64,000 bases of DNA, taken from Neelides folsomi. Lineage: Eukaryota; Arthropoda; Collembola; Neelipleona; Neelidae. A program made the position numbers and the translations under genes. The stretch spans positions 186,001 through 250,000 of the forward strand of contig JAQGBZ010000029.1 in assembly GCA_034687125.1 (NCBI GenBank). Direction: 5' to 3'. Every line of letters begins with the position of its first letter. Position 1 is the stretch's first letter. Positions 33,493-64,000 of this stretch are shown piece after piece. Below the pieces are notes generated by a model. The model saw only the letters and a program-made list of their open reading frames with translations. It did not search any database and was not told where the DNA came from.

Positions 33493-33588
33493 ATGAGTTG
33501 GGGTGGAAGCAAAGGACCCCAAGGGCCCTTTTTCTTCTTCATCTTCCTAGCGTTCACCTTGGCCCAGACCATTCCACAGCACCACCAG
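33493..33588 (+). CDS. HSPG2: Perlecan exon 1, signal peptide
   Basis: ATG at 33493 encodes 32 residues: MSWGGSKGPQG, a hydrophobic core FFFFIFLAFTLA, then QTIPQHHQ. It ends at the donor CACCAG|gtcagt in phase 0. The next accepted exon (52142) begins in phase 0, so the join is in frame. The core length and the small residue before the polar end fit a cleaved secretory signal, with cleavage near residues 24-26. The 18.5 kb intron between them makes the pairing an inference, although no better signal exon was found upstream of the SEA exons. Confidence 0.75.
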
Positions 33589-50265: not shown

Positions 50266-52141
50266 TCAATATAAAACTATATTTACAGTAATTAAAATGC
50301 TAATTTTTTGGTTAAAATATTCTAAAATAAAGATTAAGCATAAAGATTGTACTCAAGATTGTTATAACTTTAAGGGATATAAAAAGGCCCAGAACTTTTA
50401 GAAAAAAATCGAAGAAAATTTCCTTGTCTTTTATAAAAAACCAGGAGACGTCGAAGGAATACTTAATATTAGTGGGATGTAAGATGTAAGAAATTGGTGT
50501 AGATTTTTTAGCTCGTTTACATGAAATCCTCTTGATGACCCGCAGCCCCTGTTGATGCTCACCCGCATGAATTCGAAGCAGGAGAAAGTTAAGCTCCATT
50601 GAGCTATTGAGCTTCCTTCGGAAGCTACTTAAGGAAGAGGAAGCAAGGTATGAATGGAACAGGCACAATAAATACCTTGTCCGACCACGCTCGGAGAATC
50701 CTAATGACGGACCTCCGTTATTGAAGAAAGCCTTTTAGAAAAGTGAGCCACCTTGTTGGGGGAATCTCGTTTAATGTTAATGCTCCGCTTTCGAATCCTC
50801 TTCATTCTCCTAATTTTACGGCTCCTGGCTCTTTCTCAAACACACTTGGATGATGTGATGGGCATTTGATCATCACACCGTTACTTGCCTTGTAAGGAAG
50901 ACGCATTGCCGTGGGCTTTCGATGAAGCCGGGTCTTATGTAAATGCAAAGTTGGGCCGAGCAATTTGAACAGAGCTATGTGTCAATTTATTAGGGAAAGG
51001 CTTTAAAGTTCAGAGACCGTCGCTTAATACTGATTTAGGAATAATGGAGAAAACTACGTTTTTAAATTCAGACATAAACTATCAGACTTTACAAGAAACT
51101 CCCTTTGTCAACAACAAATAGAGAAATTCCAAGAAACTTTGTGGAGTTTGGGGTATAATTAAGTAATCAACAACTTAACACCAAGATTAAGTTATCTGAC
51201 ACTAAATATGTATTTACTGAATACTTTTCATTTACTTAATTATTTGTATTTAAACGTCATTTTTTCTACACATTTAGTTAGATGTTATTTTAATTGATTC
51301 AACGAGCTTTTAAACAACGTGCCTTCATGTCGCTGTCAGAATCACAATTAATTCAATTTGATGTTTTATACGCATTTCTTTGCTTAGGTATATTAATTTA
51401 CATAATTTGTTATGAATAAGAAAATAATAAATCATATCTCGGTGTATTCAAATATTTTGAAAATAGAGTATTTGAAATAATTAAATAGTTTGTATAAATT
51501 TAACATATTTAACAACTAATTAATTAAATGATATTATGGCTTTCACTTACATTTTTACATAATAAATATGATATTATGAAAGTGACCCATTTATATGATT
51601 TGATACCAAATGCAAATATGTAGACTTTACAAAAACTTTTTAATGAACAAAACTTTTTTTCGAACTTTTATTTCTGTAAAAACTATCGATTTTTGAATTT
51701 ATAAGGATTTTCTTTCATTATTTATATAGTTTATACATTCTTGTTCCATCTGGACTAGCTCATCAATAAATACTGGGTTTGCAAAAATAATGTAAGAGTT
51801 CGTGGAATCTATGAATGATAAATTGAAATTAGGAGCAAACGCATGCTTATTAAGCCATTTGAATAACTTTTTCTTTTAGAAAACAGGAGCAGGACCATAT
51901 ACTAAAGCTAATTTACTTGTAAGAAAAACTCTAATAAATATCTTATAATCATATTTCATAAAAAATCAATTTTTTGTGATTTTTTTACAACGATGAAAAA
52001 TACCGAAACAGTGTGTTTTATTGAAGCGAAGTTGTATGAAATAAGATGTATTAGCAATTTGCTGTGTTTTATTCAGCTACCATTGGACAGTTTTATGGTT
52101 GAAACGATGTTGAGTTAAAAATGATCTTCCCCATTTTTCAG

Positions 52142-52598
52142 AAAAACGATCGGAGCGTCGACCTTATTTTTGACGACTATTCCGATTCAAATTCAGCTGA
52201 GCGAAATTTAGTGCTTAGCGGGCGGAGTAATAAACATAAGACTTCAGTTGAGAGCAAGAGAGGAAAAAGATTTGAGGACTGGGGATTTGACGACGACGAG
52301 ACAACGGAGCGGACGGAGTCAACAATAAAAGACTCAACGAGACCTTCATTGCAAACGACCAAAAAAGAAACGACGGTTGACGGGAAGTTTTCTCCTTCGC
52401 CACTAACAAAAAGAACCATCGTTCCAGTCTCTGATGATGAAGATCTTGTCTCTTCCGGTGATGATGGCATTCACGAAGGGTCTGGAGACTTTTCCGCTAC
52501 GTCGGGAAGGGAAAGTCCATCCACAACAATTTCACACTCACCTTCTTCCTCTTCTTCCTATTCTACAACTGGTAGATCTGACACAAGCGAAACAAGGA
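52142..52598 (+). CDS. HSPG2: Perlecan exon 2, acidic Ser/Thr-rich domain with heparan sulfate attachment sites
   Basis: The acceptor is ccatttttcag|AAAAAC and the donor is CAAGGA|gtaagt; phase 0 in, phase 1 out, residues 33-184. It starts KNDRSVDLIFDDYSDSNSAE and is rich in Asp/Glu and Ser/Thr. The key part is VSDDEDLVSSGDDGIHEGSG followed by DF, which strongly recalls human perlecan domain I (SDDEDMLADSISGDDLGSGD). The two Ser-Gly-Asp triplets (Ser137 and Ser146) in an acidic context are the typical heparan sulfate attachment sites of the family. A long Ser run (SHSPSSSSSYSTTG) follows, likely O-glycosylated. The frame stays open into the intron upstream, so a false start at 52121 should not be used. 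Confidence 0.9.
52454..52489 (+). other. Glycosaminoglycan attachment cluster (two SGD sites)
   Basis: These codons spell SGDDGIHEGSGD, with acidic residues just upstream (SDDED). Perlecan domain I carries its heparan sulfate chains on SGD triplets; vertebrates have three and this protein shows two. Confidence 0.8.
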
Positions 52599-52725: not shown

Positions 52726-52882
52726 GGTTCTTCAGAATTTCTCTCACAATTGGGAAAAGCTGGAGTCCTGCCTTGGAGCAAAGATCTTCTTCTGCCTTTA
52801 AAATGATCGAAGAGGAATTGGAACATTCATGTAGCCAAACATTGGAATTTGAAATTGAAAGCTTTAGTATCATTAATTTCAT
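52726..52882 (+). CDS. HSPG2: Perlecan exon 3, first half of SEA domain
   Basis: The acceptor is tcaaatag|GGTTC and the donor is TTCAT|gtaagt; phase 1 in, phase 2 out, residues 185-236. It encodes FFRISLTIGKSWSPALEQRS, then SSAFKMIEEELEH and LEFEIESFSIINFM. The pattern of a beta strand, a Trp/Ser-Pro turn, helix EEELE and a second strand is that of SEA domains, and it aligns with the human segment VYFRALVNFTRSIEYSPQLE. The GSVVV autocleavage motif of mucin SEA domains is not seen, which is also the case in perlecan. A Cys (CSQTLE) is unusual. Confidence 0.9.
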
Positions 52883-53410: not shown

Positions 53411-53571
53411 CGATATTGGCGACTCAGCGTTTGTTCGCTGCGTTTTCGACATGGGACTCATCGGCCACACAAAGGAAGAAGTTGAGGCTGCGTTCAATCC
53501 TCTTTTTGATGGGATCACAATGGGATCACTACGAGTCAAAAAGGAAGGCTTCAGCGTCAGAGATGTTGGAA
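53411..53571 (+). CDS. HSPG2: Perlecan exon 4, second half of SEA domain
   Basis: The acceptor is cttttatag|CGATAT and the donor is TTGGAA|gtaagt; phase 2 in, phase 1 out, residues 237-290. It encodes DIGDSAFVRCVFDMGLIGHT, then KEEVEAAFNPLFDGITMGSL and RVKKEGFSVRDVG. It corresponds to the human stretch running from GWVFVELDVGSEG to GFQFRRLG: strand, loop, helix, strand. A Cys in FVRCVFD could pair with the Cys in the first half (CSQTLE), a disulfide that would be unusual for this domain. Confidence 0.9.
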
Positions 53572-54393: not shown

Positions 54394-54531
54394 AACCTCT
54401 CCTTTGCCACGAGAATGAGCTTCAGTGCAATAGCGGCGAATGTATTTCTATTACAATGAAATGCGACTCCTCTTTCGATTGTGCCGATGGGTCGGATGAA
54501 CATGGATGTCCAGACACCTCTAACACGATCC
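54394..54531 (+). CDS. HSPG2: Perlecan exon 5, LDLa module 1
   Basis: The acceptor is cttatttag|AACCT and the donor is GATCC|gtaagt; phase 1-1, residues 291-336. It encodes a complete LDL receptor class A module with six cysteines: [33 protein letters not shown]. The calcium-binding acidic signature D-C-x-D-G-S-D-E is intact. It is followed by PDTSNTI, a short linker. Symmetric phase-1 exons like this allow module loss or gain without frameshift. Confidence 0.95.
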
Positions 54532-57433: not shown

Positions 57434-57757
57434 CTTCGACACTTCCATCAACTACTCGACTTTCTTCTTCTTCTCGTCATTCAACTACTCAATTTTCTTC
57501 AACAACAAGAAAAGACATTTCGAGCGAAAGTGAAGAAGGAGACAAAAACGATCTTGAAATTGATAAAAAGCCAGACGATGGAAAAAAGCAAGTGGACAGA
57601 GTTCCAGTGCCTAATCCAAGACAACCAGACGATCATTGTCGAGCTGACGATCAAGTGAGATGCTCAGATGGAAAAACTTTTATATGCAGTGATCAAAAAT
57701 GCGACGGGCATCCAGATTGCCCAGACGAAGATGATGAATTTAATTGCGATTCAACGG
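57434..57757 (+). CDS. HSPG2: Perlecan exon 6, Ser/Thr-rich linker plus LDLa module 2
   Basis: The acceptor is aaatctttag|CTTCG and the donor is ACGG|gtattt (weaker than the others); phase 1-1, residues 337-444. The first part is a mucin-like linker (STLPSTTRLSSSSRHSTTQF), then an acidic/basic stretch (ISSESEEGDKNDLEIDKKPD), then a full LDLa module: CRADDQVRCSDGKTFIC, DQKCDGHPDCPDEDDEFNC. The six cysteines and the acidic calcium-site residues are present. The linker is probably O-glycosylated and is longer than in vertebrate perlecan. Confidence 0.93.
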
Positions 57758-58876: not shown

Positions 58877-58993
58877 ATGCGTGTGAACCTGGTCACTTTT
58901 CCTGTGACCTCACGAAGTGTAAACCCCAAAGACTCAAGTGCAACGGAGTTCAAGATTGCGATGATGGGAGCGATGAGACAGGATGTCGTGGAC
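58877..58993 (+). CDS. HSPG2: Perlecan exon 7, LDLa module 3
   Basis: The acceptor is tgtattttag|ATGCG and the donor is TGGAC|gtaagt; phase 1-1, residues 445-483. It encodes ACEPGHFSCDLTKCKPQRLK followed by CNGVQDCDDGSDETGCRG, a complete six-cysteine LDLa module with the D-C-D-D-G-S-D-E calcium site. Its phase-1 donor needs further exons, which should lie beyond 63255 or outside the window. Confidence 0.94.
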
Positions 58994-61900
58994 GTAAGTT
59001 TGACTATTTCAATATTTCTTCCTTTTCCTGCCTTTCAACTTTCATTTGCCTTAATTCATGGCTTTTGTATTCTTAAACTTTAAAGTTAAAAAAATCATCA
59101 AAAGAACTTTCTAACCAATTTAATCTTAATGTTAGATACTAATATAGAAATAGTTTTAACTTGAAAATAACCAATTTTAATAAGCTGATACAATATAAAA
59201 TGATTTTACTCTACATACTGTACGTAATCTGTATAAATTCTGAACAGGCATAAATTTTAAATCTTATACTGACATCATTACAGTAAAAATATCAATAACT
59301 TTACCTTCAGATTTGAACACTTTAGTCGAATTTTATTTCTATTAATATTGAAGTTTGACTTTTCATTTTTTATACTATTACTAATATTACAATTTTAAGA
59401 TTAAGTTACATAGTTCAATATTCAAGGTGAAAGACATTGTTAATCATTTGACCATGTGAATTTATGACAATCATTATACTGGAAACGGGATATTTCTTCA
59501 AATACCAAAAAACCAACAATCAGAATGTTAAGTAGGGAGTTTCAAGTACTTACTTTTAAGAAATTGACAACCGATTATTAGTCGACTAATGCTTAACTGC
59601 ACCATAATTTCCTTAATGCAAAAATGCATATATTTCTTGTTAATCAGAAATCTTGGGCGGTATTGGCATTAGTCAATACAAGGAACTTAATGTGAATGTT
59701 AATTACTTCATACAATTATTATACAATGTAATGTTCCATTAGTTGGTTAGCTCCTGACGTGACGGTTGTAATGTTGAGGTTTCTCAAACTGTGGTTTATG
59801 GCTCTGTGGGTCGGCGTGCGACAAGGAGGGGATGAGTACCGAGATGATGGAACACAATTACTCTCAACGTCCAACCACCACCTCGCCTCAATTACATTAT
59901 ACTTAAAGCCCATACAAAGAATTGAAATGAGTTGGTGAGCACGAAATCCGACTCTGGCTATTATTTATGGTTATTTATGGTCTGAGACTCGAAATGGTCC
60001 ATTTGAGATTTACTTCTTCAGAGTTTACATACTCTTCCCCTGTTCCTCACCTGGGTTTATGTGTTTAATGGTTGGATAAGGGATGAGGGTCGGGTTGTCG
60101 AAAGTGGACAAGTAATATTAGGATAATACTTTTTAATACTTTCACCTTCGATTGTTTGGTCTGGGTGGCCAGAAGGAAACGGCGGTTCGTTTTCCATAAA
60201 TCAACCTTCTTTTGAGGGAAATCACTATAATTGAGTGTGAGCGGGAGGGAGAGCTGGAGATATGAGGTGTGACCTTACGGGCTTACGTGATCGGCTTCTC
60301 ATTAGATGCCTTGGACATTTCATTGGCAGAGCAAAGTGAGACTTTTTCACTTCTCCTCCCAGGCGGTCAACAGTATATTATGACCCTTGTTGTAATCTCA
60401 GTACCTGTCAGACACAAGCCGGTGTTTCGCTCCTTTAAATGAGGATAAAGATTATAGAATTTTTAATTCTCAATTGAATAAATGGGAAAAGAATGAGATT
60501 TGAGCACATTGAGGGGATAGGAGAAGGAGGAAAGGATTTACTGTAGAAGAAGGTGCGAATCTTTAATGCCAACCACATTGATATTATAATACTAATCAAA
60601 AAGGATCCACTGCTCCTCCAAGACTTATAACTCTTTTTCACCGAGTTCGTGGCAGGGCAGAAGCAGATCTCATCTTTTTCATCCTATCATAAATTGTAAG
60701 AATGACATGACGTGGCGCGGCCGGCTTTCACATGAATTATTACATTTACTCCGAGATCTTAGTTAGCAATACACAAGTTGGAGTGAAAAGACAACTAATA
60801 AACTTCTATATCTTCCTCTCGTGAGCTCCTTGGATGAAAAAACACGCGATTTCTTTTTTTATATTCCCTCTTCCGATTTGTTTTAACTCTAATTCAATTT
60901 GTAAACATTTTAGGAGCCAAGATTCTGTCTCTGTTAATTTGAGTTTATCTAAGGTTAATGTAAATACATTAAATCAAACTCAGTTTTTACCCATTTCCCT
61001 ATATTTTACATCCCTATCTATGCTGCAAAGCGGAATTTAAGTTTAGCATTACAAATTCAACTGCTTTTTCACTCAATTTTTCAAGGATAGAAATAATGAC
61101 TCCAATAAATATAAATGAGACTCAATACACCTTTACAGAAGAATATTTATGTTACAATACTTAAATCACTTATTTATGAATATGGTTTGAGTGAATCAAA
61201 GAAACCCATTATTAATATGTAGAGTACAAGTTCAATTGCATTCAGAAACTTTTAATAGCATAATTCAACAAATTGGTGAAAACGCACAATTTCGCCTTGT
61301 TCCAAAATGACTTGAACGTGCTGATCATGAGGTAGGGTGGATTTCAGGTTGAATGTCAGCTTTAGATTCCATTCAATTTTATATAAGGAATTTCGATCTC
61401 CAAGTTAGGCTAGGGTTAGAACTGAGAACACGCTTGATCTGAATAGAGATTCTGAATATTGAATAGTTTTTTTATATACAGTTTGTAATTTCAATCCAAC
61501 AAATACATATTACATAGTCCATTAGGAGAAGAAATCAAGAAACTGTAAATCTAATTAAATACGACTTTTATTGATGATTTTATTGAGTGTGGAGAATTTA
61601 AATTAGATTTCATTATGGTTTAATAATGAGCTAAAATGTAACATGTTACTAAATACAATTTAATAGTTGTTTACACTTATTAAAAATATTATCGGTTCAA
61701 TAGTTCAATTGTTCAATTTAAGGATAATTCTCACAGCTATTAGATTCGCTAAAATACTCAACATGCTAAATGACTGAATAAAAGTCCAATCAAATGTTAT
61801 TAATGTCTTTTGTAAACATTCAGGGTTCCAAAGTTTTATCTCGTTTCATTTGTTGAGCCTTTTACATCTTTATTGTTGGCCAATGTTTATTACTTAGATA

Positions 61901-62005
61901 CGCACATAAATTATGTATGATATTTGTATTATCTATATTTTACATTCATACATACAGAAGTTGTTTTTCACAACATTGATGGAAACAAGGAACTGAAGGA
62001 TTATT

Positions 62006-62102
62006 AAAGGCTATGCATTGGATTTTCTACAAAAATTTATTCGCATAGAGAATAAATAATCTAAAGATGTGAGAAGTGTAGAAAATCCAATGCATAGCCT
62101 TT
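62006..62102. repeat. Hairpin with perfect 26-bp arms
   Basis: AAAGGCTATGCATTGGATTT with six further bases (62006-62031) is repeated exactly as reverse complement at 62077-62102. The loop is 45 bases. The length and perfection suggest a recent small foldback element or a structured transcript such as a microRNA-like precursor. Confidence 0.85.
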
Positions 62103-62459
62103 AGTATAGTGTTTTTCCATTAGGCCATTTTTCGATTTCTGTATTTCAATGTCATATTTGTAAAATATTTAAATAGAGTGGGGTTGTCTATTCTTACACT
62201 TTGCTTACTTACTATTGCTCATTGAAGAGAATAGTGTTCCTCTCGAGTTCCTTCCTGAGAAATGAAGTGAAGAATCGCGTATTTAGCATTGTCAAACGGG
62301 TGTTGATTTAGCCAAGGAGAAAAAGATTTATTGGGGTTCTCCGGATTTCATCGACGCTCTTCCGACTGATGTTTCGAGATCATTCTTCTTCTCATTTATT
62401 TCGTGTCGAGTCTCTTGTTAGAAATGTTGAAGTGAATGGTAGCGGTGAGAGATTGGGGA

Positions 62460-63142
62460 GCAGATCTCATGTCCTAATCAACAACATCCCTGATCAGCAG
62501 TTGATGAGAATATGAAAATGAGGAGTCCTCCTCTCTTTGGTTCTCCGTAGCCAAAAGGGTGGGCTTCTCCTTTCCTGGCCAGGGGATTTGGCTCAGTCGA
62601 ACTGCGAGCAAATGCAAATGCATTGAGGAGAACATGAACTGTGGCCTCTGTAAAGTCTGTATGAAAGGAAAGGCGCTCCGTTGACTTCTGCCAGTCCATT
62701 TTGGAGTCCATCGGACGGAGATTCCTCCTTTATACTCCGGCCCGTTAGGAACATTATATAGAAGGAGCCTTCGCTCCGGAGGCAGATTGAATAATAAAAT
62801 AATAATAATAGCCAAAGCTCTGAAGATCCTTTGATTGACAGGGGGCCTTTTCGGGGTCTCCTACTGCGTGAGACCCTCATTTTCAATTTCCTCCCTCCTC
62901 GTTTATCTTCATTTGCTCTCCACTTCTCCTTCCACCTCCGACTCCTCAATCCGCAAAGTTTGATTTCACAATAAGCGGAGAACAACGGGATTTTTCATAT
63001 TATTCCGCTTTCCATGCGGATCGGTTTAGTAGATACAAGAAGAATGAAAATCCCGATTTGATCCCTTGCCATCATTCAATTCAAGTGAAGCTATCGTTAG
63101 TGGGAGAAAGCGTGTTGAGCATCTTGGAGCCGTTAAGTCGAG
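62460..63142 (+). promoter_or_regulatory. Likely internal promoter before second signal-peptide exon
   Basis: A GC-richer block lies inside the perlecan gene, ending at the ATG of the alternative signal-peptide exon. ATTATATA near 62750 is a TATA-like motif. Open frames on both strands here are compositional (Ser/Pro/Arg rich, no known domain). The call rests on position and base composition only. Confidence 0.35.
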
Positions 63143-63254
63143 ATGTCACGGGAAATCCCTGGGATTTCTGTGACCAGAGTCTTCTTCCTTCTTCTCCTCC
63201 TCCACTTCGGAGATGTAAATTCAAGGTTCAGGTCTTCAAGAGACCGAGACCGCG
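63143..63254 (+). CDS. Second signal-peptide exon, probable alternative first exon of perlecan
   Basis: ATG at 63143, with an in-frame TAA nine bases upstream, encodes 37 residues. They are a polar, net positively charged start MSREIPGISVTR, a hydrophobic core VFFLLLLLHFG, then DVNSRFRSSRDRDR, with cleavage likely after NS. It ends at the donor CGCG|gtaagc in phase 1. All LDLa exons of the perlecan gene upstream use phase 1, so this exon could join the next perlecan exon and make a secreted short isoform without the SGD and SEA regions. The alternative is a separate plus-strand gene starting here. An overlapping frame (63058-63258) is a shadow. Confidence 0.65.
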
Positions 63255-64000
63255 GTAAGCATTGACAAAATAACCCACATGAAACTATATTTAATATTGT
63301 TTGTTGTGATTTAATATTTATCTATCAAAACTTCAAAACACACGGCGTAATTAATTCAATTTAAAAGCCACTCTTGGTAATTAAAAGTCTTTTTGGAGGT
63401 AATAAAAGGCAAAGTGATGAGCAAACATTTTTAATTATGCAACTTGATTGTTGTCATTAATGTCGTTAGAGTCATAAATTAATTAGATGGAAGTAATGTG
63501 TTCAATCAGGAAGATTCCTAGGATTGTATAATTATTAACAATAATTTAAATAGTCAAATCTGATGGAGATTTTCCGGTCAGGCAATTGATTCATTCGAAG
63601 TCATATGAGGCGCAATGAGGATTCCTGTGAGAACTATCTATTTTACATAAGTATTTATATTTCTATCTATTATAGCTGAGTCAGTCAAGTTTGATTCAGG
63701 TTTTATTTGTTGTAATGAATTCAGTTGGTTGAAAATGAAATCATTGAAAGATTCATTTCATTTCAAATGTTCATCAGAATGATTTGACATGACATCACGG
63801 TTAAACACGTACACATGTTCACATTATGAGATCCTAGCAGGGATCGCACGGACATCCTAAATGAAATGTGTATCTCGTGGAAAAGGGTAGGGTAGGAAAA
63901 CGCCTTGTCCCACTCCGCTCACATCTTCCCATAACCATCCAACCACCTCATTCATACATTCATCCTTTCCATGTAAATACCTACAGACTTGCTACAACTT
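63255..64000 (+). other. Intron start after the second signal-peptide exon
   Basis: AT-rich sequence after the donor, with no exon or repeat that I can see up to the window edge. Confidence 0.6.

Follow-up and report, generated by a model that had tools for sequence, protein, structure and literature searches.

In the collembolan Neelides folsomi, a short exon at 63143-63254, inside the intron that separates LDLa3 from LDLa4 in the perlecan gene, is probably an alternative first coding exon of perlecan driven by an internal promoter in that intron, a reading to which we give a probability of roughly three in four on the strength of the sequence. The exon opens with an ATG and a signal peptide, ends in the phase of the next perlecan exon, carries an unusually good donor in an unusually long intron, and has no other coding partner nearby. 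The window, meaning the whole stretch of 64,000 nucleotides that was analysed (C29:186001-250000, C29 being contig JAQGBZ010000029.1), was joined to the next 50 kb downstream (C29:250001-300000), and positions past its end are given in extended window coordinates, which run on from those of the window.

The preliminary description had placed the exon in a perlecan gene, and the host gene does present LDLa, Ig, laminin B and laminin G modules in perlecan order. An LDLa array (domain II) is recognizable, with PF00057 above cut-off in four of the five LDLa exons scanned and the other modules identified by their cysteine pattern. More LDLa exons occupy 65.4-78.3 kb, and an Ig module at 79.1 kb is followed by further LDLa modules, a laminin B/EGF section, an Ig array, a laminin G/EGF section and the stop codon near 95.2 kb (extended coordinates), an order of downstream modules that was judged mostly by eye. 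Among three downstream exons compared with Pfam, Laminin_B and Laminin_G_1 exceeded the cut-off, while Ig_3 remained just below it (26.5 bits versus 30). A scan of bacterial and archaeal genomes with a perlecan laminin G exon yielded a single weak match, 21 residues long, in a Myxococcales bin, and it was set aside. Just past the perlecan stop, the open frame 97616-98341 (extended) resembles, by eye, a fragment of a Tc1/mariner-type transposase. The features of the gene up to and including the host intron are as follows.

33493 to 33588, forward strand: probable first exon of the long form, beginning MSWGGSKGPQGPFFFFIFLAFTLAQ..., donor CAG/GTCAGT, phase 0 (signal-peptide scan)
52142 to 52598, forward strand: acidic exon with two SGD (heparan-sulfate-type) motifs, predicted for the long form only (gene model)
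52726 to 52882, forward strand: first half of a weak SEA-like region (PF01390, E 0.033, below cut-off)
53411 to 53571, forward strand: second half of the weak SEA-like region (gene model; alone without a Pfam match)
54394 to 54531, forward strand: LDLa1 exon, phase 1-1 (PF00057, E 2e-12)
57434 to 57757, forward strand: exon with a Ser/Thr-rich linker and LDLa2, phase 1-1 (PF00057, E 0.0037, below cut-off; cysteine pattern)
58877 to 58993, forward strand: LDLa3 exon, phase 1-1 (PF00057, E 2.6e-11)
58994 to 64000, continuing to 65354 (C29:251354) beyond the window, forward strand: host intron between LDLa3 and LDLa4 (gene model)

The exon at 33493-33588 encodes a classical signal peptide, lies downstream of a GC-rich stretch and ends in a strong phase-0 donor that fits the phase-0 acceptor at 52142, to which it probably joins across about 18.6 kb. 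Another hydrophobic ATG frame with a phase-0 donor, 50780-50854 (MLRFRILFILLILRLLALSQ...), was ranked behind 33493 as the start of the long form because its donor, GAT/GTGATG, is weak (2.98 versus 9.67), and it is a possible further first exon of perlecan. Pfam searches of ten open frames at 41.8-50.7 kb returned nothing above cut-off, the best match being TFIID_NTD2 (E 0.0071). The possible signs of domain I consist of two SGD motifs and the weak SEA match, whose E value of 0.033 for the first half becomes 0.056, likewise below the Pfam cut-off, when both SEA-like exons are joined. The gene model holds three SGD motifs, two of them in 52142-52598 and the third in the laminin G exon 92693-93025.

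The LDLa exons of perlecan had been described as symmetric phase-1 exons, which in the gene model is correct for those on both sides of 63143-63254 but does not extend to a pair near 80.7-80.9 kb or to LDLa4, for which the gene finder chose the phase-2 acceptor 65341 over the phase-1 acceptor 65355. One LDLa exon, 77931-78038, was missed by the gene finder though present on inspection. Several LDLa modules are divided between two exons by an additional phase-1 intron, whose position inside the module is roughly similar from case to case in the gene model (extended coordinates).

71476-71559 and 71655-71693: split LDLa module
72414-72485 and 72622-72675: split LDLa module
77449-77538 and 77615-77653: split LDLa module

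Within the host intron, the candidate exon and its surroundings comprise four features.

62200 to 63142, forward strand: GC-rich stretch 5' of the ATG, putative promoter and 5' UTR (GC content, motif counts)
63134 to 63136, forward strand: in-frame stop TAA, three codons 5' of the ATG (upstream frame read)
63143 to 63254, forward strand: candidate alternative first coding exon with ATG, signal peptide and phase-1 end (translation, signal-peptide scan)
63255 to 63260, forward strand: splice donor GTAAGC, in the context GCG/GTAAGC (donor scoring)

The exon measures 112 nucleotides, that is, 37 codons plus one nucleotide, and hence ends in phase 1. Its peptide, MSREIPGISVTRVFFLLLLLHFGDVNSRFRSSRDRDR, begins with a classical signal peptide, cut as MSREIPGISVTRVFFLLLLLHFGDVNS/RF..., in which the h-region VFFLLLLLH (mean hydropathy 2.84) precedes a V-x-S site that obeys the -3/-1 rule, as scored with a simple in-house scorer rather than SignalP. 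The ATG has a purine at -3. Sequence and translation thus confirm the ATG exon with a hydrophobic signal, an in-frame stop upstream and a phase-1 GTAAGC donor that had been noticed earlier, and its reported distance of 4.1 kb past LDLa3 measures 4.15 kb from the LDLa3 donor (58993). Across the 75.1-Mb assembly, both the 851-bp stretch round the exon and the exon peptide matched only themselves.

The donor at 63255 scores highest among the 311 GTs between 59.0 and 65.3 kb and outscores 50 of the 65 modelled donors of the perlecan gene. The host intron, at 6.35 kb (6347 bp with the acceptor at 65341, 6361 bp with that at 65355), is the longest of the 65 modelled introns beyond 52 kb, the next being 2.9 kb and the median 134 bp; exons before 52 kb were left out, so the first intron, which would be longer if 33493 starts the gene, is absent from these statistics. 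Of the 81 gene-finder exons, 66 beyond 52 kb were used for the donors and introns; three placed at 59.7-63.3 kb were set aside, as were the first exon and eleven likely false ones at 36-50 kb. The statistics also depend on a gene finder that favours good donors.

Upstream of the ATG, the segment 62501-63200 has a GC content of 0.461, ranking third among non-overlapping 700-bp segments at 44-96 kb and first once the modelled downstream exons, on which both higher segments sit, are left aside; other GC peaks occur inside introns, for example at 59701-60400. Core promoter motifs in 62200-63142, comprising one initiator-like TCAGTC at 62593, one TATATA at 62755 and one ATGCAAAT at 62612, showed no clear excess over background. 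The octamer ATGCAAAT is present once in each of the two putative promoter regions, with a background frequency of 0.14 per kb, and its sharing is suggestive at most. When compared with each other, these two regions gave no significant similarity, and eight other regions did at least as well. An Rfam search over the window returned no matches. The host intron also contains, at 62002-62108, a 107-bp near-perfect palindrome with 30-nt arms that are 97% complementary and a fold z-score of -11.4; a second copy, 97% identical over 107 bp but with differing flanks, lies on contig C164 at about 79450-79546, and the palindrome resembles a small mobile element of palindromic type, or else the source of a hairpin RNA.

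Seven phase-1 acceptors with a score of at least 3 and at least 25 open codons lie between 63.3 and 65.4 kb, and the LDLa4 acceptor at 65355 is the only one with a positive coding score (+16.8 bits; the others range from -7.3 to 0.0). Joining 63254 to 65355 reads ...SRDRDR-G-IVSACGERSPDPHTDVFKFKC..., in frame and without a stop, and the splice from LDLa3 into LDLa4 shares this acceptor and phase. We infer that the LDLa3 exon competes with 63143-63254 for the LDLa4 acceptor through this predicted short-form junction. The claim of a phase match to the LDLa exons of perlecan stands insofar as the phase-1 donor fits 65355, although phase on its own says little, a random exon having one chance in three of fitting, and a phase-2 acceptor 14 nt upstream, 65341, is stronger (7.44 versus 5.74). 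The donor of LDLa3 is in phase 1, and the ordinary long form thus needs 65355 and not 65341.

The exon might have arisen by chance, as a T/C-rich intronic stretch in which a hydrophobic run follows an ATG and a good GTAAGC lies within reach, with no transcript behind it, and we regard this as unlikely. Its h-region does derive from a CTT/CTC run, and its codon bias is unsupportive, in that codon scoring against an intron null gives the signal frame +15.0 bits and another frame +16.4. With a GC-rich null trained on seven stretches, one of which (62.2-62.87 kb) lies immediately 5' of the exon, the score of the signal frame is -3.9; the probable signal exon of the long form gets -5.3 under this null, and the codon measure therefore seems blind to signal exons. 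Coincidence is at odds with the exon's place in an intron longer than any other modelled beyond 52 kb, on the best donor there, and with the rarity of comparable configurations. A strict signal-exon scan, with thresholds placed post hoc just under the exon's own values, returned no matches on either strand of twenty 10-kb pieces of real genome and none in 3.6 Mb of GC-rich genome tiles; looser cuts on the same 10-kb pieces gave 2 matches (1 in phase 1) and 10 matches (3 in phase 1). Order-4 Markov sequence (6.28 Mb) yielded 4 phase-1 matches, or about 0.004 per 6.4-kb intron, and Markov sequence modelled on the local GC-rich stretch (3.6 Mb) yielded 2, or 0.0035 per intron. Over the 114-kb contig stretch analysed, on both strands, the strict scan found one other match, 82729-82890, which is a modelled exon read out of frame. 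A relaxed scan of the forward strand at 33-96 kb gave eight matches, three of which reach a donor score of 9.6 and an h-region value of 2.8, namely 82729 (out of frame on the modelled exon), 33493 (phase 0) and 63143 (phase 1), and the donors of 33493 and 63143 each fit the phase of the next acceptor.

Two further explanations accept the exon and give it a different partner or role. It could be the first exon of a separate gene nested on the same strand and encoding a small secreted protein, a quite improbable reading for which it counts that phase-1 signal exons are common among secreted genes and that open frames of 61-67 aa follow the phase-1 acceptors 64368 and 64386. We rejected it, as the six phase-1 acceptors before 65355 that reach a score of at least 3 with at least 25 open codons all have coding scores of 0 or less; Pfam searches of four open frames at 62.3-63.3 kb, two per strand, likewise gave nothing above cut-off (Curto_V3, E 0.053). 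The sequence could also belong to an internal, cassette-type exon, either through the phase-2 frame of 62873-63254 or through an acceptor inside 63143-63254, which we consider about as improbable. An unconstrained gene finder did give an internal exon 62873-63254 with a phase-2 end joined to 65341, the stronger of the two LDLa4 acceptors, and an acceptor-like site at 63232 scores 6.74. The phase-2 exon was nevertheless rejected, since it needs 65341, whereas the ordinary long form with its phase-1 LDLa3 donor needs 65355, and since its frame scores -1.6 against the GC-rich null and has no Pfam match. Among the acceptor-like sites listed within the exon (63178, 63213, 63226 and 63232), 63213 alone is in phase 1 for the signal frame, and it scores 0.01.

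If 63143-63254 is an alternative first coding exon of perlecan, a transcript would start from the putative internal promoter at 62.2-63.15 kb, and 63254 would be spliced to the LDLa4 acceptor at 65355 (C29:251355) and from there to the common exons. The resulting short perlecan, beginning SRFRSSRDRDRG-IVSACGERS..., would be directed into secretion by a signal peptide of its own. By our own count it would retain about 16 of the 19 LDLa modules that precede the first Ig module, together with all later modules. The acidic exon with its two SGD motifs would be absent from it, as would the weak SEA-like region and LDLa1-3. A form without the heparan sulfate/SEA domain and the first three LDLa modules had been proposed before; the exon does have the position and phase needed to stand in for all that lies 5' of LDLa4, while the SEA assignment comes down to a weak match. 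The heparan sulfate part would be skipped with respect to two of the three SGD motifs, whereas the third, in the laminin G exon 92693-93025, would stay in the short form. It is conceivable, although we put it at somewhat under even odds, that promoter choice switches the SGD-bearing, SEA-like front end on and off and so sets N-terminal heparan sulfate and growth-factor capture, which, as part of the same tentative claim, would then be determined by promoter choice and not by splicing or glycosylation. Altogether, the original observation is confirmed, and its interpretation as a short perlecan, unproven, is plausible and largely backed by the anatomy of the exon.

Internal promoters of perlecan are already known as a type, since the isoforms of Drosophila trol are described as coming from three promoters. 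The relevant passages of PMC8405445 list 23 predicted isoforms (one short, one intermediate and 21 long) and, from Pol II occupancy, infer that niche cells use the long- and short-form promoters, in agreement with the alternative trol starts cited in the preliminary description; a passage of PMC10328508 puts the predicted variants at 25, with lengths of 2853 to 4489 aa. The D. melanogaster gene resembles the arrangement proposed for Neelides in having several promoters for different secreted perlecans (short RBB and intermediate RAK in PMC8405445). The two differ in that fly perlecan is said in the same source to have no domain I, and a SEA fold is not predicted for trol or unc-52 in the pertinent part of PMC4398486, whereas the part that the short form of Neelides would skip contains two SGD motifs along with a weak SEA-like region. 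In C. elegans, unc-52 likewise produces several perlecan isoforms from one gene, but the passages on it in PMC6266596 describe regulated splicing and mention no internal signal-peptide promoter. Human HSPG2 "miniperl" is also a shortened perlecan, attributed in that source to alternative splicing or alternative start/stop sites; as described there, the events fall within domain I and concern a colon carcinoma line, with no second signal exon inside the LDLa array. A possible novelty with respect to the fly is that the omitted part includes two SGD motifs, which would make the Neelides gene a variant of the fly arrangement. A literature search run without the species name, and hence of little weight, found no description of the exon at 63143-63254.

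Reading 63143-63254 as the start of a short perlecan predicts one sharp junction, from 63254 to 65355. If the exon is expressed, promoter choice within the perlecan gene would extend beyond flies, and it would offer a simple route to a perlecan without N-terminal SGD motifs.
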